A DNA stretch of 64,000 bases from Mytilisepta virgata (Eukaryota > Mollusca > Bivalvia > Mytilida > Mytilidae): the NCBI GenBank assembly GCA_028015205.1, contig CM051516.1, forward strand, positions 39,570,230 through 39,634,229, given 5' to 3'. Under the pieces are notes generated by a model that did no database searches, was not told the DNA's origin, and worked only from the letters and a program-made list of their open reading frames with translations. Every line of letters begins with the position of its first letter. Positions within the stretch are counted from its first letter, which is position 1. Shown here piece by piece: positions 5,889-64,000 of the stretch. Position numbers and translations under genes: made by a program.

Positions 5889-8527
5889 GACAGTTAAGAC
5901 ATCCCGCTGAAATTTCCTGTTTTTGTTCATACGGTCTTTTAGACAATGAAAGTTCCCGCTGGTGTAAAAATAAAAAATTTTTAAAATCCTCCCATCTGTC
6001 CCATTTTCCTTGGCCCTAGCCCATGAAAATCTACATATTAAGTTTAAATGGAATTCTAAACATTTTTTACTTCATACTGATAACTCCTGCAACATGTATG
6101 CACCAAGTATATAACAACATCTTTTAAACAATAATCCAACTGTGATTATCAAAATAATAATACAATGCATTCTGTTGACCTTATCAATCCTGTATTTTTC
6201 TAGGTAATTCAACAGTAATTAACAAATAAAAGCCTTACAAAGAAAAAATTTACAACATTTGGCCTGGATTTTTTACTAGTGAAATAATCAATATAAAAAC
6301 TCTTAACAATATTAGTTATGTAACATTACAATACAATTAAATAAAGATTAAATCATATTACAAAACATAATTTAACAACCCCACTTCACTTTTATGTCTT
6401 CAAACATGATTCTTAAAAAGAATTTCATGAAATAGCGAATTAACTGTACTAACAAACACATTTTTTTAAGAATTGTAACAGATTGTTAATTTGTGGTTCA
6501 ACGGAATTCCAATACTGTGAATGTGTTTATTTCCAGTGTTATTATTATATTAGAGAGCAATCGATCCTAAACAATCATAAAACAGCTATTTATATGTTAA
6601 TTTTGTAAACTTTCAATTTTATCACCAAAAATATTCAGATGTAGAAGTTTAATACATCACTTTTGACATGAAACAATATTAAAGCAATACTAGTGTACAT
6701 TCTGAGAGATCTTTTCAGCTATAAAACAAGAGTGGATACTTGAACATGTCTTGCCTTTCATAGGAGCATGTTAGGAACATTAGTAGTTAAAACAATTTGA
6801 GAAAGAAGAAATAAACTCCAACCTAGATTTAATTTGCCATCCAAACATCATGAAAGATAATTAAAATATATCATAAAATCAAAGTCTGACATGTGTGCTT
6901 TTTGATGTTTTTTTTTTTTTTTTGTAATAACAGTGACCATTATAATTGCTAAATAAAAACAACTCAATCAAAGTTTGGTCTCAACGAATCCAAAGAATAG
7001 AGAATGGAAACGGTGAATGTGTCAAAGAGACAACAACCCGACCAAAGAGCAGAAAACAGTCCAAGGCCACCAATGGGTCTTCAGCACAGCGAGAAAATCC
7101 CACAATCTTACAGTTGTTTTAGAGGAGAATAATTTTAAATGCAAAGCGAGGGCAATAATCTCATGACACTTTGGGCTGGGTGAGCTAATAACAGTGTGAC
7201 ACTTCAGAGCAGAATCTTCTTAACCTCCAAGAGCACTGATATCACTTACAATTTCATGAAGATCACACTGTCTCCTATTTAGTTTAAGTGTAATGTTGTT
7301 TGTGGTTTAATTTCTGTTTAAATTTCATTTTTGCCTCTTCCCTATTCTTCAAATTTTATTTTTATTAAAAATATATTTAAACTATAAAGATAAACATCCT
7401 CAAGAAGATTTAAAAGAAATAATTCAAACTGAATCTGGATTAAAAATAAAAATCTTGTTTCCTCGAAAAATGATTATTTTGACCCCTTTAAATTTTATCG
7501 AAAAAAATTGCTTTGATTGCAAGAAAAGTTATTCAAATAAAAATACATGAAGACTTTAAATAATCAATATTTGATCAAAAGTAAATTTTTCTCAGAAGCT
7601 ATTGTGTTGATCTTGTAAACAATATACATATAGTTTATCCATAGACAACATAACTATACATGGAAATTCATGAAAACCAGTGCTTTCTTCACAAAAATCT
7701 TTTTCATTAAAGAAATAAAATCTATTCAATTCTTTGTTAAACTTACATCCTCTGTGAATCAAGTACAATAAAAATTCCAATGTATCAATGTAGCATATAA
7801 TGTAATTTTGATAAAAAAGAATACCAGACATATATATATGGCAACATATGTCATACAAGTCAGACAGACTGGCATACCTTTGTTTCTGTAAAACAGTTGC
7901 TAGTATTTGGACTCTATAGATTCAATAAGGAAGGGAATAACATATATTTGTTCCTCCTTATTTCAATCAAAGTTTGACAAGCAATTCAATAACTGCTGAA
8001 TCCAGGCATTGCAGTGTCAAAACATTTTCAATTAAAATTTACCAAACTTATTCCTATCACAAATTGTAATCAATAGTTATCAAATCTTAACCCAAACCTA
8101 CTAAGAAGACCCCTGGTCAAGTCCATGAACGTCAGAAATCAATCTTTGAAACATAAGTACCAAAAGTAGAAATTTTGCAAAAGTTTTTGCTTTTCACATT
8201 TAGCATGCATGTGAACACACCGTTTCAGTACAGAACTACTTCAGCATGCTGAAAATTTCATAAATTCAGATAAAAAAGAAAATAAGAAATGTAACCTGAG
8301 TTTTACATTTTTGCAGATATATGTATTACATTATTATGATTTGCATTTAAAACTCCAAATAAAATTCAGCAAAAAAATATCTGTGAATTTCTATCAACCA
8401 CTAAAATTAGCCCACATTAGCATCCACCAAAAATAGCCTATTATGTGATATCTGAACCTAAATTCTTATAATTCATCGGAATCGTACACACAACCAAAGT
8501 GTTCTTCCGTATTTCCTTTATACTTAC
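5889..8527. other. Arrestin intron 3 with repeat fragments
   Basis: Intron between exons 4 and 3 of the minus-strand arrestin gene. Around 6996-7110 is a fragment whose core ('gtgtcaaagagacaacaacc', followed by a gaccaaagagcag segment and 'ccaccaatgggtcttc') recurs in reverse at 43711-43835 and more weakly at 32690-32765. At 7141-7190 is a short copy of the GGTGAGCTA repeat end. The remainder is plain A+T-rich sequence with no exon I can support. Confidence 0.65.
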
Positions 8528-8754
8528 TGCAGCGTCTGGTTCACTGTTTAAATCTAAGCAGCCAATCACAGCAAACTTGCTTGTTCTTGTTGGATGGGGT
8601 CCCCCTGGGGTACAGATGGTCATTCTGGCAAAATATCTTAGCCGTCCATGTTTTCCTTTAAACGATGAAGGTGCTTTCTTTGGAAGTGTGAATTCAAATG
8701 GAAAATAATGTGAACCTGAGTGTAAAACAGCACCATCTGAAGTATCTTTCTCTC
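8528..8754 (-). CDS. Arrestin-domain-containing protein, coding exon 3 (core of N-domain)
   Basis: Codes for residues 77-152. It is 227 nt with acceptor ATTTTCAG before 8754 and donor GCA/GTAAGT (GT at 8527-8526); it enters in phase 1 and leaves in phase 0, matching its neighbours. The protein carries the strongest family signature: 'SHYFPFEFTLPKKAPSSF' followed by K-G-K-H-G and then a R-Y-F-A-R strand. This is the G-x-H-x-F-P-F-x-F-x-L-P...P-S-S-F-x-G-x-H-G-x-x-R-Y pattern of alpha-arrestin N-domains. It ends in a D-L-N-S-E-P segment, the linker toward the second domain. Human ARRDC3-type proteins have the same block order. I cannot choose an ARRDC subtype from this half. Confidence 0.93.
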
Positions 8755-11650
8755 CTGAAAATAATACCAAACACTTCAATAACCCCCTCAGCAGAACCTC
8801 TAAATAAGGCAATTCAAAATTCTATTTGATGAAGTGGAAAACTGTGCAGACAAAAATATTAAAAAAGTGCAAATGTCTAATTTAATCAATTGCATTTAGT
8901 CTAAACTGACATAAAATCATATGTATCCTAGATTTCTTTAAAACTCAAACACAACATTAATTTTTTCTTATTTACATTGTATTATATCATTAATTCAGCA
9001 AATATTAATAAAATTATTTCATCCCAATTTAGCGACAACTGATAGCCATATTAATACTCATTATTTCTACCATTAACCGCATATTTCGCAAATTTTCCAT
9101 GTCAATGTAATAAATATTTTTGAATATGTGATATAAATAATATACCATGTGTAATCTGCATTAATTGTTTATAACCTTGATCTAGTAAAATTACAAACAT
9201 TAATAATTCCAATGTTGTTTTCAAAACATCAACTGCAGTAATTTCATTGGCTAACAGCAATTTCTGGTAAAAAGTTTATAACTTGATAAATTCCTTTCGT
9301 GACGGCATGCATATGAATACGTACAGATGCAATATAGTACATGAGGAAAATGTTAATTTCAAATGGAAAACGTCCCATTTCTGCATTACATTGGAAATAT
9401 AAGTAATAAAGGTTATTTTTACAGAATTTATCAATGTGTAAACTCAGGCTTATCACTCACAAACTTTACATAAAGTCCTTCGGACTCTATTCAGTTTGTG
9501 AGTGAATCGCCAGAGTTTACACATTGATAAATTCCTTCAGAATAACCTTCTTTACTATAATATTCCCTCAAATGTTTCTGTTCTTCTAACTGAAATTTCA
9601 CCTGATCTCAACGTCGAGGGTAATGAAGGGAGATAAGTACATGGAAATGAACAGAATATGAACAAAAAATAACAATTTGGTTTCCAAATTCCATTATTTT
9701 CTCAATTTGCATGAAACATATTAGTGAAAAAAAAACCTAATTACTGCATGAAAACATGTGAAATAAAACTTAGAACAGATCACAGGAAAATAACACCTAA
9801 CCATCCTCATGGTAAAATTTCAAAGAATTCTGCCTATAAAACAAAGGCATTATCTAGGATTTAACAATTACTGATTTCAAAAAGATAATTTTAGGATTCT
9901 GACAGAGACGTATCATGAACTGAATTGAAGTATAATCTTTTCAATTATAAAGTTAAGCAAGACATCTTACAGCTATTTTAAACTTCTCTCATAAATCTTT
10001 TCATGATATTTTCCATGAAAGAAACTGTCTATAAAGACTAATACTATCTTTCTGAAAATTGTTGTATTTCAAATATTATCTGACTCCTTTATACCCTTTT
10101 GAAATGTTAACAAATTATCTTAACCATAAAAATTACTAACTTAATATTCATAATTATCCCTGACTGTGCAACTAGTATAAAATTAGATAATTAATATTAT
10201 ATGCCATATATGTAGATACTGGTATTCAAAATATTCCATTTTTAACCATTTTTACACCATGTCCTATTCACACCAAGTAAAGTTTTACAAAAAATAATGT
10301 TTGAAATTTTTGCATTTCATTTGGAAGTATATTGTCATATACATTACACATATAATTACAATGAACTTAAGGGCAACAACTACTGGTTGAAACTTTAGAA
10401 GAAGCTTAAAATCAATTTGGTCTTATTCCAGTTTTAGACATTTAAATTGTCATATCCCCAAGTAAATGTCAGTCATTTACAGTTATCATGATTCCAACAC
10501 CATCCCAGAGATTTAATGCGTAGAGATTTATCATAAAACCAGATATTTACCAAGATAACAGAGCACTGTCAGGTTACTATCATTGTGACACCAGTTTTTT
10601 GGATCAAAGATTACGACTGATATACCTTAGACTTAACTGTGATAAAATCTCTATATTTCTATACACCAAGTATGTCTGGTTCTTAAAATATGTATTTTCA
10701 TGCCTTATATGCTTGATAATGACCAATCGTTTTATAATCCCTGTGTCTTATATTTTACTTTACCTTGTAGCTGAGAAAGGAATAACTAAAGAAGGCCATT
10801 GGCCAAAAAACTGTTAATATATCCCGATTTTTAAAGATTAAACAATAAATCATATGAAATTCTTATATTTTGAGGCACCAATAATTAAAAGAAATATCAG
10901 TAAATACAGAAAGAAGATTCTGTCTGAGTGACAGAAAACTGGACTTTATCACGTCACTGTTTGCAACCAAAGCCCTCTGTACTTCACTAAAGTATTAACC
11001 TGATTTTTTTTTCTGTGGAAAATTCAGTTAACAATTAAACATAAAAACCATGGACAATTTGTTAAAGATTCTGTTTTATTGTGCATGCATGCAACTATTA
11101 TTATCTATTATTTTACCGAAAAAGTAAATCAATTTTATATAAGTGAAAAAAATATATTCCCTTCAGCAAATATAGAGAATATGTGATCAAAGAATTTAAA
11201 AACAAAACTATATACTACCATCTTACATCATACATAATATCGAACATTTACAGAACGGATAAAGTATAACACTTTCAACCAATAAAAATTATTGTCTTAC
11301 AAATAAACTGTTTCAATGGAATTTCCGTAAACCTTCACCCATTTCAGCTTGATTCAATTTTGTTGAAATTTTTATTTCTTTCCTATTGATTTATCAATTC
11401 CTTCATCTTGTTCGGATTTTCCAACATTACACAACCAAATTTTTTTATTGCATTAATGTTGTTTTATTTATGTTCTCTGCAGCAAAGAATTGCATTAGGA
11501 TGACAAAGGACTTGTAGCTTTCTTTATCTGCGTAGATCTTCATGAGATTACACAGGAAATAGACTCTACTTCCAATGTCTATATATTCAATATAAATTTT
11601 CAAATTGATAAAAAAACAAAAATTTATTTCAAATGTGCTTTAAAAGGTCT
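8755..11650. other. Arrestin intron 2, left part
   Basis: Intronic A+T-rich sequence between exons 3 and 2. Apart from the foldback element at 9398-9582 it shows no exon, RNA gene or other repeat I can define. The plus-strand open frame at 10599-10817 lacks a recognisable domain and is probably noise. Confidence 0.6.
9398..9582. repeat. Foldback (long-hairpin) element
   Basis: Two arms of about 75 bp, 9398-9470 and 9509-9582, are imperfect reverse complements; each contains an aatttatcaatgtgtaaactc or complementary segment and a tcactcacaaact/agtttgtgagtga pair. The loop has a smaller stem of its own (AGTCC TTC GGACT). The unit could form a long RNA hairpin if the intron is transcribed. It resembles a foldback MITE; I did not find a convincing target duplication. 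Confidence 0.75.
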
Positions 11651-52128: not shown

Positions 52129-53674
52129 TACACTGAACCGCAAAAGAAATCTCGCACAAAATGACATGTTCACATACATTTATTTCAAAGTGACATTTAT
52201 ATATTTTAAATTAATTTTTACAAAATTTAATGAATGATTTACAGTCTTTTGGTTACAATGTTCACAAAAACGTCACAATTGTCGCAACGTCACATGTTTT
52301 CAATGCTGTGCTCCCACGTCCGTTAATAACGTGTATGTCCTCCACCGGCACCAATTACTGCGGCACATCTTCGGTACATGGAGTTGATGAGCCGATTAAT
52401 AAACGCCATCAGAATACGTGCCCATACTCTCTGAAACGCTTGTGAAAGTTCAGCTGCAGTTGTCGGACTTGGCTGCTCATTATTCAACCGTCTTTGAACT
52501 TCGTCCCATAAATGTTCAATAGGGTTTAAATCTGGACTCAAAGCCGGCCAATCCATAACAGTAATGTTATTCTGCTGTAGGAAGTCTCTTGTGGCTCTTG
52601 CGGTATGCGCACGTGCATTGTCCTGTTGGAAAGTCTTGTTTTGATGACGTGCGAAATGGGGCTGAACATGGGGTGTCAAGACTTGGTCGATGTAACGGGC
52701 AGCTGTTACGCCATTTCCTCTGCCTGGGCCAAGGTTCTGAAAGATGACTGGACCAAGTTTAACGTTAAGGCCGATTCCACCCCATACCATGATGCTAGGT
52801 CCTCCCCACGCGTCTGTTTCCAGAATGCAGCTGTCTTCGTAACGTTCCCCGCGTCTTCTCCACACTCTGGTTCTGCCATCGGCTGTTGAAATGCAGTAAC
52901 GGCTTTCGTCAGAGAAGATGATGTTACGCCATTGTCGATTTCGCCAATTCTGTCGCTGAGTGGCCCACTGAAGACGAGCTTGACGGTGTCGAGGAGTAAG
53001 AATAGGTCCTCTTGCTGGACGGCGACATCTCATGTTTCTAGCAGCTAATCGCCGACGAACCGTATCATCACTTATGGGTCGTCCATGTGTTCCAACAGTG
53101 TTTCTGGCAGTTTCGGCAGCTGGGGTGAACCGATTCATCAAATGGTGACGAACAATGCCTCTATTCTGTCTAAGGGTAGTGACTTGGGGTCTACCACTCC
53201 GTGGACGGTCATTTGTGCTGTTTGTTGCATTGTACCGTGTCCGTAGACGTTCAATTGTTCGAACAGCACAGTTGAAGTCGTTGGCAATAACTCTGGCAGA
53301 TTGCCCAGCATCCAATCGACCAATGGCCTGTTCTCTCTGTTGTGGAGTCAGACGTGGCATACCTTCTGTGTCAACACTGATACTAACACTCTTTAATTTT
53401 CTCCAGCCTTTTATACCCATAAAGGAGCATGAATTTCACGAACATTTAAGATTTAAGAAAAATTACCGCCAATTGTGTCCCACGAGCGGTTTTAGGTACG
53501 GTCGCTCTACGATATCAACTGAAAATTATTCAACCGAAAATTTAATTCACAGGTAATTTAATCTTACCTGGTGATGTAATCGTAATACTGATTATATAAA
53601 AATCATTAAATAATATTTATTTTGAATTTTGCTAACATTTTGAAAAAGCGACGTTTCTTCTGCGGTTCAGTATA
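52129..53674 (-). mobile_element. Complete Tc1-like DNA transposon (DD34E), 1542 bp
   Basis: Element 52131-53672, flanked by TA on both sides. Terminal inverted repeats of about 24 bp: CACTGAACCGCAAAAGAAAT at the left against TACTGAACCGCAGAAGAAAC read inward from the right. The single gene inside is on the minus strand and uninterrupted. Complete ends, a proper TA target and an open transposase suggest a recent and perhaps still mobile copy, although some terminal mismatches are present. Confidence 0.92.
52323..53360 (-). CDS. Tc1/mariner-superfamily transposase, DD34E, apparently intact
   Basis: Cut-and-paste transposase, 345 residues from the Met at 53360; the frame is open a further 20 codons upstream, but M-P-R-L-T-P-Q-Q-R-E is the usual start of this family and the length fits. 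Residues 5-45 form the first helix-turn-helix, followed by a GRPR-like motif ('DRPRSGRPQV', 51-60) and the second DNA-binding domain to about 125. The catalytic core shows Asp151 (IIFSDESRY), Asp247 (FQQDNARAHTA) and Glu282 (SPDLNPIEHLWDE); there are 34 residues between Asp247 and Glu282, hence DD34E. It is GC-richer than its surroundings. The overlapping frames on both strands are shadows. Confidence 0.96.
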   Translation of the reverse strand: MPRLTPQQREQAIGRLDAGQSARVIANDFNCAVRTIERLRTRYNATNSTNDRPRSGRPQVTTLRQNRGIVRHHLMNRFTPAAETARNTVGTHGRPISDDTVRRRLAARNMRCRRPARGPILTPRHRQARLQWATQRQNWRNRQWRNIIFSDESRYCISTADGRTRVWRRRGERYEDSCILETDAWGGPSIMVWGGIGLNVKLGPVIFQNLGPGRGNGVTAARYIDQVLTPHVQPHFARHQNKTFQQDNARAHTARATRDFLQQNNITVMDWPALSPDLNPIEHLWDEVQRRLNNEQPSPTTAAELSQAFQRVWARILMAFINRLINSMYRRCAAVIGAGGGHTRY

Positions 53675-55444: not shown

Positions 55445-56927
55445 ACACTTGAAACTAAGAAATCCGAAAATGCTCAGTAACGCCTTTAAGTATGCATGCA
55501 AGATTATTCATGTAAAGTATATAATACCAGACAAAATTCTTACTTAAGTTTGTGTTTAAATAAAATACATGTCGGTATTTGATTTCAAAGGAATATTTTT
55601 AGATCATCACTCACACCATGAATATGTTGCCTTCTTGCCTCTGTCATATTTATTATTTTAAAGCAATATAAGAACAATTTATTGGTCTTTTTCACTAATA
55701 TAGCAGTTCACGTATACTATTACTACTATTATCTGTAGACTTACCGAAAACGTGTTCTTCTTCCAGTTATCAGTATGAACGAAATAGGCGCCAAACAATC
55801 TGATTGAATAATAAAACCGAGATTGTCAACAAAGGTAACATATTTTTAAATAATTTAAATTTAAACGTTTGTTGACATAAACGCATCACATGGTTATAAA
55901 TTTTTAAAATAATCCACTTTAGGGAGACCCCGGTCGAAAACTCGTAGTACTATCTCGACTGCTGCTTTTAGAAAGTTAAGAAAAGTTGTTAACAGCTAAC
56001 AAGGGAGGCAAACAAGAGATTTGATTACAATAGCAGATGTATAATTATTGCGAAACAGCAAACTATTAACGCTTAATCTAGATCGATCTTATTTGGGTCA
56101 AAACATCCCAGAAAAAAACTTGATTATTATTTTGAGATGATAGTCAAACAGAAGAAAGTATAAGAACAAAAATATCTTATCATACACAAAATTAAGTTTG
56201 CAATAAATATAATTACCTATAGGTATTGCACGTATGTTGTCTCATAAAAAGTATACAAAGAAATTTCTATGTAAAAGTTAGATTAAATAACTTCTTTGAT
56301 ATATTAAATAAATCAGATTTGGTGCCACAAAACTACAAATTACATCGACTAATGTTTCTCTGAAATGGAAATTACAAAACTTCTTGGCTTTGTTTTTCTA
56401 AACCTGATCAAATAGAAGACTGGAGCAATCAAAACGGCGAAGATTTGTGACATTAAAATACTAATGAACAGTAACGGAAGCAAGTCTCTACTATCAGTTA
56501 TACTGCGCCAGTGGATAGTTAGATCTGGCTTTAGCAGGAAGATGAAATTAACAATTAGGAAACACGATACAAAATTTAGAAAGTGTGAAAAAGACGCGAA
56601 ATCAGGAGTATGACTGACGTCTGTAACATACTCTGCTTATCTAGTACATGTACTCTGGTGCAAGTTACCATGACCTTCGATTGAGAAATAAATAATTTCT
56701 GGTACAAAAGTTTAATCAGGCTCTAATCAAGGATATATACGGTAACCGTTGTCATCACAAATTGATTCAACATTAAAACGTTCCAATATCAAAAAGACTA
56801 TTTGTTTTCGCTGTCAGAACATATGCTCCTCCACAATAATGTGACTATCATAGGATACCTCGATGGAAGTTAGGTGTTCCGAGTCTACTTCGTTCCCTCT
56901 AACGATTTTGGGAGGTTGATTAGTGCA

Positions 56928-57522
56928 AGTAGTATATGGGCACAGGCAAATTAATATATAGAAAGTGACGCCATTGAAACCGGAAGTCACGTGACGGGAA
57001 CAGAAGTACCCGGAAGTGGTTTGCGCGCATGCGCAACCGGAAGCGATGGATTTTCGCGCCATTTCTCCTTTATTTGTTTACGGAAGTGACATAAGTCACG
57101 TGCTTGGACCAGGATGTGTCATCTGCGCATGTTCAGGCGGAATCGGAAGTGGTTTGCGCGCATGCGCAACCGAAAGTGATGGATTTTCGCGCAATTTTCC
57201 CATTACTTGATAAAGGGAGTGACGTAAGTCATGTGCCCGGATGTGTAGTCTGCGCATGTGTGACCGGAACCGGAAGTAACCGGAAGTGGTTTGCGCGCAA
57301 CCGGAAATCGTGTATTTTTCCGGAATTTTCCCTTTATTTGTTTGGATTATCTCCCCTTTTTCCGCGCTTCCCGGACGTCTCTCGGCCTTTCATGGGTATG
57401 TATAGGGGTCTCGTATCGAGTCTCTACGGACTGATACTCTCACTGTTATGTCGGAGTCCGAGAGTATACGAAGTACAGAGGTACTGTTGGATTATCTCGC
57501 CCTTTCCGGCGCTTTTCACCAC
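56928..57522 (+). repeat. Left long terminal inverted repeat of the Polinton-like element
   Basis: Inverted relative of 60119-60727. After 37 bp of A+T-rich end sequence it has two clear tandem units of about 133 bp and a partial third. Each carries CCGGAAGTGGTTTGCGCGCA(TGCGCA), a gattttcgcgc segment, a kggaagtgacrtaagtcacgtg segment and tctgcgcatgt. These match NRF-1 (GCGCATGCGC at 57025 and 57158), ETS (CCGGAAGT), E2F (TTTTCGCGC at 57051 and 57184), CREB/ATF (TGACGTAA at 57220) and E-box (CACGTG at 57097) consensus sites. The inner part has ggggtctcgtatcgagtctc and ctgatactctcactgttatg, shared with the right end. Confidence 0.85.
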
Positions 57523-57689
57523 GGGTTATGTTTTCCGTTCGTTCAAGGGTGACCAAATGTAGAATTTGATTATATCCCTTACGCACAGCTGTTGCTGTTA
57601 AAATTAGGTAAATGGAGGGGTGTACTTAGCAACCGCCTTACCAACGGCGGCCCATTTCATTGCTCTATGATGCACTTCGTTTCTCTTCT

Positions 57690-58260
57690 CTTGCTCCATG
57701 CCGCTCTTCGCTGCTTGTCGCTGTTCATCGCTACTCATGACTATACTCGCGTGCTCATTTTGGTTTTTTGGTGCTACTTGTCGCTGTTTTTGCTGCTGCT
57801 CCTGCTGCTGCCTCTGCTTGTTGCTGTTCGTCATCGCGGCTCTTCTCTTGCTCATCGCTGTTTTTTCTTACTCTTTGCTGTTCATCGCTAATCATGACTA
57901 TACTCATGTGCTCATTTCAGTTTGTTTGGTGGTACTTGTCGCTGTTTTCGCTGCTGCTTTTAGCTGTTCGTCGTCGCTGCTGTTCTCTTGCTCATCGATG
58001 TTTTTCTCTTGCTCTTTGCTGTTCATCGCTAATCATGACTATACTCATGTGCTCATTTCAGTTATTTTGGTGCCACTTGTCGCTGTTTTCGCTGCTGCTT
58101 TTTGCTGTTCGTCATCGCTGCTCTTCTCTTGCTCATCGCTGTTTTTCTCTTGCTCTTTGCTGTTCATCGCGACTCTTGACTATACTCACGTGCTCATTTC
58201 GGTTTTTTGGTGCTACTTGTCGCATTTTTCGCTGTTGCTGCTAGTGGTGGTCTATTGTCC
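57690..58260. repeat. 141-bp tandem repeat, about four copies
   Basis: The phrase gactatactc starts at 57739, 57896, 58037 and 58178: spacings 157, 141 and 141. Each unit contains tgctcatttcggttttttgg-type and cgctgttttcgctgctgctt-type sequence. 141 is a multiple of three, so plus-strand frames stay open for up to 188 codons, giving a Cys/Leu/Phe-rich low-complexity product; on the minus strand the repeats encode Gln/Glu/Lys-rich sequence (57604-57855 is open for 83 codons) but are broken by stops. Which strand, if any, was coding is unresolved; the Gln-rich minus-strand reading agrees with the orientation of the other frames in the element. Confidence 0.85.
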
Positions 58261-58540
58261 TTAGTCAAAGATTGGATCTGTGCGAGAGCACCCTTACATC
58301 CGGGTCATTTATCCAGGCTTGTGACTGGCTATCATAAGATAGGCTGCATTAGCCCTCCTCAATTTTTAAGGCCACTCTGCATTTGTCCAGGCTTGACCGG
58401 TTATATATATGTATAAACATGTATAGGCTACATTACCCCTCCTTCCATTTTTAAATTTTTTTTAAATTTTTTAATTTTTTAAAATATTTTATTTTTCTAT
58501 TTTTCTTTGTAATATGTCAATGTTAGTGCCAATTCCTCCG

Positions 58541-59006
58541 TCACATAGAGCCACTGCTGTCTTCAGCTGGTGGTGGGTCGTAGTCGTTCAATACAGGGTT
58601 AAGCAGATATTTTTGTTTTCCTACGGTATATTCCCATGATTCTTTTGATTCGTAATCTTCCTCTTCTCTCAAGTGTTTAGCCGTTTTCTTGATGTTTCTA
58701 TGTACGGGGTCTTTATTCAAGTTTTGATGCCAGGACATCAGTCCGAGGTAATGCTTTGGTATTTCGTCTCTGTACGAGTCAAACATTGCTGCCAAGCGTG
58801 CCTTGTCTTCTTCCATTCCGGCTTCGACTAGTTCGTTTACTGTCTGTGAGTATTCCGATTGATGTACTAAATGTTCTATTCAAAATGACATCCCATGGAG
58901 ACGGTCCGCATTGCTCTTCGGAGTCTTCGTTGGATCTATGGTCACTACTTTGTTCCGATTCCTCGTTATCGGCTTCTGTGGTGGTGTCTGAGACTGAATC
59001 ACTTTA
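58541..59006 (-). pseudogene. Decayed element gene: acidic segment plus conserved-looking domain
   Basis: Reading leftward, an acidic Ser/Glu/Asp-rich frame (about 59003-58880) ends in C-G-P-S-P-W-D-V-I. A frameshift follows and the sequence continues in another frame open to 58541, containing an Asp-Glu-Ile-Pro-Lys segment, a 'LGLMSWHQNLNKDPVHR' segment and a K-Q-K-Y-L-L-N-P motif. The 'helix, W-H-x-x-x-K-D-P, later K-R-K-F-L-L' layout is one I associate with zinc-finger proteins of metazoan mobile elements, recalled rather than checked. It is separated by one in-frame stop from the C2H2 finger at 59007-59090. With a frameshift and a stop it is presumed non-functional; the 91-codon frame 58541-58816 is its longest remnant. 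Confidence 0.55.
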
Positions 59007-59090
59007 GTCTGTTGAATCCTCTTCCATACCGTGTCGCTCTAGGTTGAAGTTTCGCTTGGACTGGTATTCACATATGTCACAGGTATACAT
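59004..59090 (-). pseudogene. C2H2-type zinc-finger fragment
   Basis: A 28-codon frame starting at ATG 59090 directly after the stop of the preceding frame (TAAATG). It encodes Y-T-C-D-I-C-E-Y-Q-S-K-R-N-F-N-L-E-R-H, a clear C-x2-C-x12-H first part of a C2H2 finger; the second His is not in its usual place. It ends at TAA 59006-59004 and the same frame continues as the acidic segment beyond. The context indicates an N-terminal finger of one decayed protein rather than a separate gene. Confidence 0.6.
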
Positions 59091-59577
59091 TTAAGTCGTC
59101 TTTCTTTCCTGGGATTCGATAGTAGAATGAGCCCCGGTCGTCCTGCAAGTGCTTATATTAGCTATAGGTTTCTCAACGGCATGTTGATTCATACACAAAC
59201 GTTTGGCAAAGTATTCGTTTCGAGATTGTTGCAGTTCAGATTTCACTTTCCTGATGAGGTCTCTATTAAGTCTTTTCCACTCGTTGTCAATCCTGATACA
59301 TCCCTTGCAGATATTCATGTTTTTGTAGAATTCAGCAAAGTTCCTGTTCACTTGACACTTTGTACATTTTTTTGTTTGGATCCACTTTGCTGGGTCCCCA
59401 ACTTGTGTTTTCCAGCCGTTTGGTTCTCGTCACTTTGGTTGGATGTATTTTCCGTTTCTTTTCCGGTTTTGTTTTGGCGTTAGAAAAATCCACAGGTATT
59501 AAATATCTAGCAGGAACCAATAAATCAACCAGAGGCGTTTTCGATTCTATTGATACGTGTGTGTTGTCTTCAAACAA
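59091..59577 (-). pseudogene. Decayed element gene with a C-x2-C...C-x2-C zinc motif
   Basis: Two overlapping minus-strand frames. The first (59577-59332, 81 codons) has a basic 'KTKPEKKRKIHPTKVTRTK' stretch. The second, reached by a one-base shift at an A7 run near 59377, carries K-C-T-K-C, then N-F-A-E-F-Y-K-N, then C-K-G-C: the small zinc-ribbon style motif seen in many phage, algal-virus and large-DNA-virus proteins. It ends in stop at 59091. Frame change at a homopolymer suggests mutation or sequencing error; programmed shifting is less likely. Function unknown, perhaps nucleic-acid binding. Confidence 0.5.
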
Positions 59578-59654
59578 CTGACGAAATTAAACAAAACCTC
59601 TGATTATATTTTCGTTAAAAGCTTTCTATTGGCGTCATGGTGACGAGGAGTGGT

Positions 59655-59893
59655 CTCGTTGATGTTATGATGAACAGCAAAGATGGCTGCGTCCATTTAT
59701 CACGGATCTGAAACAGAGCACCCTTATGAAACAGAAGTTTTAGATTCTTTCCGGACGGAAACGAATGTTCTCGGTCTCCTTTATGTTACGATGGACAGTA
59801 AAGATGGCTGTGCCCATATAACGCGGACCTGAAAGAGAGCACCCTTATGAAACGGAAATTTTAGAGTCTTCCCGGACGGGAATGAACATTTAC
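59655..59893. repeat. 120-bp tandem duplication inside the Polinton-like element
   Basis: Two units of about 120 bp, roughly 59659-59773 and 59781-59893. Shared phrases include 'gatggctgygyccat', gagcacccttatgaaac and ttccggacggraa. The motif gagagcaccctta also occurs at 58284, at the other side of the interior. It could be a duplicated promoter or leader; 'aagatggctg' contains an AAGATGGC sequence like a YY1 site. Confidence 0.75.
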
Positions 59894-59924
59894 GGATTCC
59901 AGTCCTACTCCAAACCCTTACTCG

Positions 59925-60040
59925 ATCCTAACTCTAACCATAACTCTACATCAACCCTAGTACTAACCCTAACCCCCAACTCTAACCCTAACCTTAGTCC
60001 TGCCTCTAACCCTTATCGTAGGTCTGACTCGTACTCTTAC
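59925..60040. repeat. Degenerate telomere-like (TAACCC)n tract
   Basis: Repeated phrases of the CTAACYCTAACC type: actaaccctaacccccaac, tctaaccctaacc, cctctaaccctta, ctctaacc. The canonical metazoan telomere unit on this strand is CCCTAA. The array is imperfect, about 115 bp, and lies just inside the right terminal repeat. Confidence 0.8.
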
Positions 60041-60071
60041 TCTAACCGATCATACCCCCACGTCGGTGGTT

Positions 60072-60123
60072 CACTGGTGCAAGCGTGACTGTTCGCCTCC
60101 TGTTTTTTACACTTGCACCAGTG
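60072..60123. other. Perfect 12-bp hairpin at the inner edge of the right TIR
   Basis: CACTGGTGCAAG (60072-60083) and CTTGCACCAGTG (60112-60123) are exact reverse complements with a 28-nt loop. The stem straddles the point where similarity to the left terminal repeat ends; the left repeat keeps only CACCACGGG there, so the hairpin is unique to this side. Confidence 0.85.
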
Positions 60124-60727
60124 GTGAAAAGCGCGGGAAAAGGGGGCGTTAATCCAACAGTAACTCTGTACTTCGTATACACTCGGACGTCGACATAACA
60201 GTGAGAGTATCAGTCATTAGAGACTCGATACGAGACCCCTAGCCTATACAAACCGATGAAAGGCCGAAAAACGTCCGAGAAGCGTGGGAAAAGGGGAGAT
60301 AATCCAATCTAAATCCGGGTCCGAGCACGTGACTGACCTCACTTCCGTAAACAAAAGAAAAATCCCGGGAACATATACGATTTCCGATTGCGCGCAAACC
60401 ACTTCCCGGTACCTCCTGTTCCGATCACACATGCGCAGGCGACTCATCCGGGCCCTGGCACGTGACTTACGTCACTTCTATAAACAAATAATGGAAAAAT
60501 GGTGCGAAAATCTATCACTTCCGTTTGCGCATGCGCGAAAACCACCTCCGGATACTTCCAGTTCCGGTCACGCATGCGCGGTCGACATATCCTGGTCATG
60601 GCACGTGACTTACGTCACTTCCATAAACAAATGGCGGGAAAACCTACTTCCGGTTTCGGTCACGATGACGTCTTTTCCGCCACTACCACCACCAAAAATA
60701 ATAATTTGGATGAGCCCATATACTACT
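60119..60727 (-). repeat. Right long terminal inverted repeat of the Polinton-like element
   Basis: Reverse-complement relative of 56928-57522, diverged by point changes and small indels. It carries NRF-1-type GCGCATGCGC (60527), paired CACGTGACTTACGTCACTTC blocks (CRE-type TTACGTCA at 60467 and 60610, 143 bp apart), ACTTCCGG/ACTTCCGT ETS sites, and a final acttccggtttcggtcacga segment with TGACGTC. It ends with GCCCATATACTACT. As the decayed genes inside read leftward from here, this copy is the one placed to act as their promoter. Confidence 0.85.
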
Positions 60728-60733
60728 AGTGCA

Positions 60734-63304: not shown

Positions 63305-64000
63305 GTATGTTTCAAACAATGAACTATAGTGGACAAAAATGTACTTTGATTCTGGTGCAATATGTCACATTTTAACCAAGCCCTTGCGCCTTAAACAAGA
63401 ACTATATCTTTATATAAGATATCCGACGCATGTTTCTATGTACAACTTTTCTTTCATCGGTGTTAATTTCTTAAAAAAAACAACACGTATGGAAAGGTCA
63501 GCAATGGCATACATGTACCAATCAATCAACTCCACTAAAAGACAGAACCCCGGACATAACACTAACATACAAATAGCACAAATCACAAACAAAAACACGA
63601 GAGAGAGTGAGGATAGTCTGACCTTGTAAAGATACTGAATAGTGGTGCATGGGGTTAAACCGATTTTATGGGAACCCAAATCTCCTTATATGTCCTGACA
63701 CTATTTTGTATAAAACCTACTACAGTGTGAGGGCTTGATAGAAGGGTAAACATTGGTTGCACGATCTCATAGCCGCTAGTTGGATTCTATTGCTGTATCG
63801 AAAGGAATTAGTCAGAAATAGCACTAACATCAAGGGTTTTATGCTATCTCTTCATGGGGTTCAATAGAATTCGACAATATTATTCAGAGGCCAGTATAAA
63901 TTTAAAGTCTTCAAGTCAACGGGAGAAAGAGCGTTTTTGCAGAATTACACAAAATAATATTTTTTAGCCCTTACTATGAAAAGATTTCTGCGGCTTATAA
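63305..64000. other. Presumed first intron of the RanBP2-finger gene
   Basis: Starts with GTATGT. The plus-strand frame 63339-63629 and minus-strand frame 63410-63679 have no recognised domain. At 63480-63625 the phrases caatcaactccactaaaaga and acataacactaacatacaaa resemble interspersed-repeat sequence, not confirmed. No further exon seen. Confidence 0.45.

Follow-up and report, generated by a model that had tools for sequence, protein, structure and literature searches.

The window analysed here, a 64,000-nucleotide stretch of the genome of the bivalve Mytilisepta virgata (assembly GCA_028015205.1, contig CM051516.1, positions 39,570,230 to 39,634,229), contains a 3,800-bp element (56928..60727) that is almost certainly a non-autonomous Polinton (Maverick), because a full-length relative in the same genome, which we call C7, has the same ends together with Polinton genes, and because perfect 6-bp target-site duplications (TSDs) flank 10 of the 11 copies that could be read at both ends. 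Its movement in trans by a helper is highly probable, and we consider the two statements taken together to be just as probable. These results support the preliminary description of this DNA, which had proposed a miniature, non-autonomous Polinton derivative, and its further suggestion that the element travelled as a passenger of another element is plausible. On our best reading, this copy is old and decayed, and may best be regarded as a satellite of the adintovirus-type Polintons that share its genome.

By direct reading, the element starts with AGTAGTATATGGGC and ends with GCCCATATACTACT, so that its termini, AGTAGT...ACTACT, are of the AG..CT type in the (AGT)2//(ACT)2 form, and it is bounded by an exact 6-bp duplication, AGTGCA, at 56922..56927 and 60728..60733. 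Vertebrate Mavericks show the same (AGT)2//(ACT)2 end motif with perfect 6-bp TSDs, according to the accessible portion of PMC8097293. The terminal inverted repeats (TIRs), as long as expected of a Polinton/Maverick, measure about 600 bp, the left one (56928..57526, plus strand) containing 133-bp subterminal repeats, and the right one lying at 60117..60727 (minus strand). The two arms align over 145-599 and 96-611 in element coordinates with 75% identity and with indels, and their longest ungapped inverted blocks span 70-148 nt at 78-91% complementarity, some of them out of register because of the tandem repeats. Neither Pfam nor DNA comparison detected a type B DNA polymerase (PolB), integrase, ATPase or capsid gene in the element, which is therefore classed as a non-autonomous Polinton only. 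Weak Pfam matches of open reading frames (ORFs) of the window to Ntox23 and PCB_OB lie far under the cut-off and are taken as chance, and when one single-frame piece of its ORFs was compared with protein databases, 19 candidates came up, none at E <= 0.01. Thus, the element had been correctly outlined beforehand as a 3.8-kb unit with AG ends, inverted repeats of about 600 bp and AGTGCA on both sides, as direct reading and the arm alignment confirm, and its interior genes are indeed broken, both ORFs described below being interrupted.

We searched the source genome (1.03 Gb in 109 contigs) with the left TIR and obtained at least 72 matching stretches, 40 of 3201 first-look candidates being scored; 20 stretches around such matches were examined and then 6 more, and these loci carry L-numbers in the following. 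The TSD count takes in elements with both ends read, leaving aside L023, which has no left end, and one-ended elements. Exact duplications were found in C9 (L009; 6,662 bp, AACGGC), C13 (L010; 8,583 bp, ATGGAA), C5 (L011; 6,720 bp, GTCATG), C1 (L012; 7,866 bp, AATCTA), an unnamed short copy (L024; 1,057 bp, CAGGTC), C14 (L013/L014; ~15.1 kb, ATCGTG), C2 (L019/L031; ~26.4 kb, of which ~11.7 kb is a foreign insert, TTTATT), C30 (L018/L034; ~9.7 kb, GTGATA) and C7 (L025/L032; ~14.96 kb, GTTAGG), as well as in the window; the eleventh copy, L016, is damaged at its left end, and its duplication matches at 5 of 6 positions. Since the same ends and exact 6-bp TSDs recur in this way, those of the window element are beyond chance.

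C7 provides the link to autonomous Polintons. Its first 26 bases are identical to the left end of the window element, and the two have subterminal repeats in common. Between its TIRs, C7 encodes, in order, a C2H2/polymerase region, PC4 (1.5e-18), an A32-type ATPase (Pox_A32, 4e-5; 23.6 bits, cut-off 22.8), a 264-amino-acid frame with no database match, an integrase of 351 residues (rve, 6.2e-15, residues 63-152; Chromo, 7.8e-10, residues 306-346), capsid-like frames, a protease-like stretch, a match to the twister ribozyme and a CARD gene (5.4e-11, with CED-3 and Apaf-1 as PDB matches). As an observation in its own right, this CARD-domain gene of a full-length Polinton (L032 7705-8673, plus strand), whose PC4-like end is under the cut-off, is a possible cell-death modulator. 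The 485-amino-acid capsid-like frame had no Pfam or PHROG match and none in PDB at E <= 1, and the protease-like stretch was recognised by eye apart from a Peptidase_C5 match on one of its two pieces, under the cut-off (E 0.13). The polymerase call depends on one PHROG DNA-polymerase match (5.7e-6) to a piece of C2, whose DNA there is 94-97% like that of C7, and on motifs seen by eye, which we take to be of polymerase type. Pfam found C2H2 fingers but no OTU domain in the PolB region, where OTU-like letters, as we presume them to be, are visible by eye. C30 and C2 also carry the polymerase region; in the parts examined, neither matched the ATPase-integrase or capsid stretch of C7 (C2 by DNA comparison only). 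A same-ended relative with integrase, ATPase and, through the C2 piece, PolB is thus present in the genome. Of the long copy that the preliminary description had envisaged, the ends, integrase and ATPase are there in C7, the polymerase stands on thinner evidence, and the capsid-like frames are without a match. The same description had named two outcomes that would speak against a Polinton, namely, same-ended copies encoding an unrelated transposase and a lack of 6-bp duplications in other copies. Neither occurred: in place of an unrelated transposase, C7 has genes of Polinton type (the rve integrase with its chromodomain, the ATPase and the polymerase region), and the duplications recur as given above.

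Several observations weigh against this assignment or against the functional proposals made below. No polymerase piece gave a polymerase by Pfam, a PDB search with one of them gave none at E <= 1, and a longer C2 frame (L019) matched only a PHROG endonuclease (2.9e-4). In C7 itself, the polymerase is split over two frames and lacks ~350 bp present in C2, and a stop lies within the protease-like stretch; C7 is therefore only a putative helper. Among the twister matches, all those of type P1 score below the family cut-off of 67.2 bits, only Twister-P5 matches having reached a cut-off, and both copies in the window have suffered damage. Displaced twister copies without an A-rich tract occur in L012 (plus strand), L015 and L023 (minus strand), while the short twister-like sequence that follows an A-rich stretch in L020 has no Rfam match. 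Finally, the ratio of non-synonymous to synonymous substitution rates (dN/dS) in ORF2 averages 0.55 between pairs of its four open copies, which differ by few changes, and is a weak sign of selection. As for the assignment itself, one could suppose a cut-and-paste transposon that belongs to another superfamily and has Polinton-like ends by chance, the more so as long, internally repetitive TIRs are also found in the foldback-like Galileo, as described in the accessible part of PMC3573991. Since C7 combines the same 26-base end, subterminal repeats and a 6-bp TSD with integrase/chromodomain, A32-type ATPase and polymerase region, we set aside the foldback-type and other-superfamily readings, the latter being extremely improbable.

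The exact TSD had been taken as a sign of recent insertion, a claim that does not hold. The inner arms of the window element are identical at 169 of 190 positions (88.9%), that is, they differ by 11%, versus 97% identity in C13 and 99.8% in C14, both young copies by this measure, and the core of the window element is only 76-89% like that of other copies. The insertion thus does not look recent, and the window copy appears to belong among the older copies, provided that arms are alike at insertion, whereas C14 would be young. We rejected a recent insertion on these grounds, as a perfect 6-bp duplication can persist for long.

To the preliminary description, the analysis adds a protein cassette, twister matches and palindromic copies. 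The block 58112-59652 of the window recurs at 76-89% DNA identity in the relatives that we call minis, and DNA comparison did not find it in C7. On the minus strand, ORF1 comes first, followed by ORF2, an A-rich tract and copies of the twister. In the window, the ORF1 remnant (59091..59577) has a CxxC...CxxC motif by eye and the ORF2 remnant (58541..59070) a C2H2-like finger, an acidic linker and a helical domain; a 141-bp tandem array of three copies (57814..58239, plus strand) is common to many relatives. ORF2 is present in at least 12 elements (the window, L009, L010, L012, L013/L014, L017, L021, L022, L023, L026, L028 and L033, the last retaining only 178 bp of it) and is open in L009, L010, L012 and L021. 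With the open L009 copy as query, we found seven database homologues of 36-56% identity, four of which are 51-56% identical over the whole length, two of these (P0003 and P0004) being 99% alike; upstream of ORF2, P0004 is extended by a sequence whose start resembles, by eye, the end of ORF1. The C2H2 match of ORF2 is under the cut-off (PF00096, E 0.023 in L009 and 2e-4 in P0006). A protein search with ORF1 gave no match, IMG/VR yielded no ORF2 relative, and an AlphaFold model of the ORF2 family (mean predicted local distance difference test 77.2, predicted template modelling score 0.50) had no match at E <= 0.001 in BFVD or PDB.

The minis could be simple deletion derivatives of an autonomous Polinton, passively moved and without biology of their own, a reading that is compatible with the non-autonomous and trans-mobilised steps and to which we give a substantial minority chance. 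Pieces of the PC4/ATPase region of the helper type are kept inside L009, L011, L013/L014, L016, L020 and L021, the frames of the window copy are broken, copy lengths range from 1.06 to ~15 kb, and the ORF2 dN/dS within the genome is as high as that given above. However, the ORF1-ORF2-A-tract-twister cassette is absent from C7 and kept in 12 elements, and full-length ORF2 homologues exist in other datasets, the near-identical pair among the four included. That the minis form a lasting satellite lineage of adintovirus-type Polintons, rather than debris, is in our view an evenly balanced proposition.

Matches to the twister clan of Rfam were detected in all 12 ORF2 elements, on the same strand as ORF2. 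In the window, a Twister-P5 match of 39.5 bits, above the cut-off of 37.6 for this Rfam model, lies at 58313..58381 (minus strand) and straddles two damaged tandem copies resembling type P1, the first (5') of which spans approximately 58365..58440 (minus strand). The Twister-P5 cut-off was also reached in L010, L015 and L021. Two adjacent type-P1 matches with starts 75-89 bp apart occur in 10 of the 12 elements, L010 having one and the window the single Twister-P5 match across its two copies; type-P1 scores in the relatives are 48-66 bits (E ~1e-7 to 1e-12, best 1.1e-12). C7 has a match of 61.7 bits and a stray type-P1 match of 29.8 bits. The Rfam scan covered the loci other than L030 and L031 and found no twister at E <= 0.05 in L011, L016, L018, L019, L020, L024, L025, L027, L029 or L034. 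Most columns of an alignment of 23 copies show little variation, so that it holds little information on covariation. A degenerate twister pattern found 55 stretches in IMG/VR, none of which is used as evidence here.

In all 12 elements, the interval from the ORF2 stop to the first twister is rich in A (48-77% of 62 bases, lowest in L021; approximately 58448..58508, minus strand, in the window). C7 has the same order of stop, A-tract and twister, with a run of 32 A (74% A), after its protease-like stretch instead of ORF2. This arrangement might constitute a 3'-end module, a proposal we make tentatively, with the odds clearly against it. In 8 of the 12 elements and in C7, AATAAA or ATTAAA lies no more than 130 bases upstream, which makes polyadenylation of the ordinary kind possible. 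Retroposed ends typically bear A-tracts, and the twister and its A-tract could have come with an inserted retrotransposon of the RTE type, elements said to carry 5' twisters, or with a retrozyme, without a role in Polintons. Twisters in retrotransposons are mentioned in the accessible portion of PMC7761336. Against this origin, which we regard as unlikely, the minis and C7 share the ribozyme alone (53 of 53 bases with L013), plus a few bases 3' of it in some minis; its neighbours differ, being the 141-bp repeats in minis and the CARD gene in C7; and the stop/A-tract/twister order follows two unrelated genes.

Several copies consist mostly of an inverted repeat. The arms of C13 are 2.9 kb long and 97% identical, those of C14 6.5 kb and 99.8% identical, and C2 (L019/L029-L031) has the polymerase gene in both arms, at 97-99.9% identity, its outermost 450 bp being only 83% identical. 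The palindromic C14 and C2 have at their centre a sequence related to a 121-bp tandem repeat of the window element (59652..59886, plus strand), which is followed there by a degenerate CCCTAA-like repeat (59888..60060, plus strand). Matching TSDs and different flanks argue against fold-back as an assembly artefact. The palindromes are reminiscent of defective adenovirus genomes, and an origin by fold-back during copying falls somewhat short of an even chance in our estimation. One arm of C2 also contains the foreign insert, from L029 4417 to L030 6282, with an open stretch of 1,462 amino acids.

The TIRs of the window element and its relatives are distinctive in composition. In ten TIRs, the observed/expected ratio of CpG is 1.21-1.38 (1.36 in the window's left TIR), while elsewhere in the window it is 0.46. 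Each of the ten contains one or more exact motifs of what we take to be the NRF1, ETS, E-box/CLEAR, CRE and E2F types, for which 200 dinucleotide shuffles of each TIR gave means of 0-0.2; since the motifs sit in tandem units, the counts are not independent. YY1-type motifs numbered zero in the ten TIRs. These CpG-rich arrays hold motifs resembling those of housekeeping promoters, and a promoter or origin role of the TIRs is a guess.

Taken together, the sequence comparisons suggest how such elements might propagate. The integrase of a helper would join the AGT..ACT ends of a mini to a staggered cut, giving the 6-bp duplications, and the helper polymerase would copy the mini starting at the TIRs. 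The palindromic copies would arise by fold-back while one end is being copied. The twister would cut transcripts just downstream of the encoded A-rich tract and so create their 3' ends. In its fullest form, the proposal would be that the adintovirus-type Polintons of this animal and their satellites share the A-tract/twister module for the 3' ends of late and cargo mRNAs, and that the satellites are a lasting lineage exploiting helpers with a DNA-binding-type protein of their own; as a whole, this is doubtful. If the satellite reading is true, pairs of helper and satellite that can be likened to virophages exist in animal genomes, and the helper integrase and the ends are directly testable; if the module works, a virus-like DNA element of an animal would offer a natural example of mRNA 3' ends made by a ribozyme. 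Short Polintons are easily discarded, one survey having dropped Polinton-like elements below 10 kb as incomplete, as stated in the available text of PMC4028283, and here they make up a family with the ends of a helper, a conserved cassette and ribozyme motifs. In a literature search that left subscription papers mostly outside, we found the term 'Polinton-derived' but not 'non-autonomous Polinton/Maverick', and no paper joining twister ribozymes with Polintons or reporting them in bivalve transposons.

Elsewhere in the window, there are a Tc1/mariner-type transposase with a long open frame of 370 amino acids (52326-53435, minus strand; DDE_3 1e-16, HTH_Tnp_Tc3_2 1.6e-12), an exon encoding an arrestin N-terminal domain (8444-8821, minus strand; 1.5e-17) and a weak SECIS_1 match (63798-63864, minus strand; 29 bits, under the cut-off of 35). 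At L027, reverse-transcriptase-like frames (6150-8663, minus strand), presumably of the Penelope type judging by eye, adjoin a Polinton end.

Compared with known systems, the window element has the ends, the perfect 6-bp TSD and the TIRs of vertebrate Polintons/Mavericks as given in the accessible portion of PMC8097293, to which C7 adds integrase, ATPase and polymerase region; it differs from them in its lack of core genes and its length of 3.8 kb. The definition of adintoviruses includes an integrase with a C-terminal chromodomain in the available text of PMC11071296, and C7 is alike in its rve integrase with such a chromodomain and in its putative capsid- and protease-like frames, and also has a CARD gene. 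However, the PolB of C7 has no OTU domain by Pfam, its hexon identity is only putative, and twisters are not mentioned in that available text. The minis are similar to miniature inverted-repeat transposable elements and other non-autonomous DNA elements in that they are short, have the ends of a full-length relative and presumably use its enzymes, but differ from them by a conserved protein cassette, ribozyme matches and palindromes of up to 15 kb. With retrozymes, as portrayed in the accessible portion of PMC7761336, they have in common small self-cleaving ribozyme motifs within a mobile element, whereas the minis are DNA elements with TIRs and TSDs, in which the motif is of the twister type and is located downstream of both an ORF and an A-tract.

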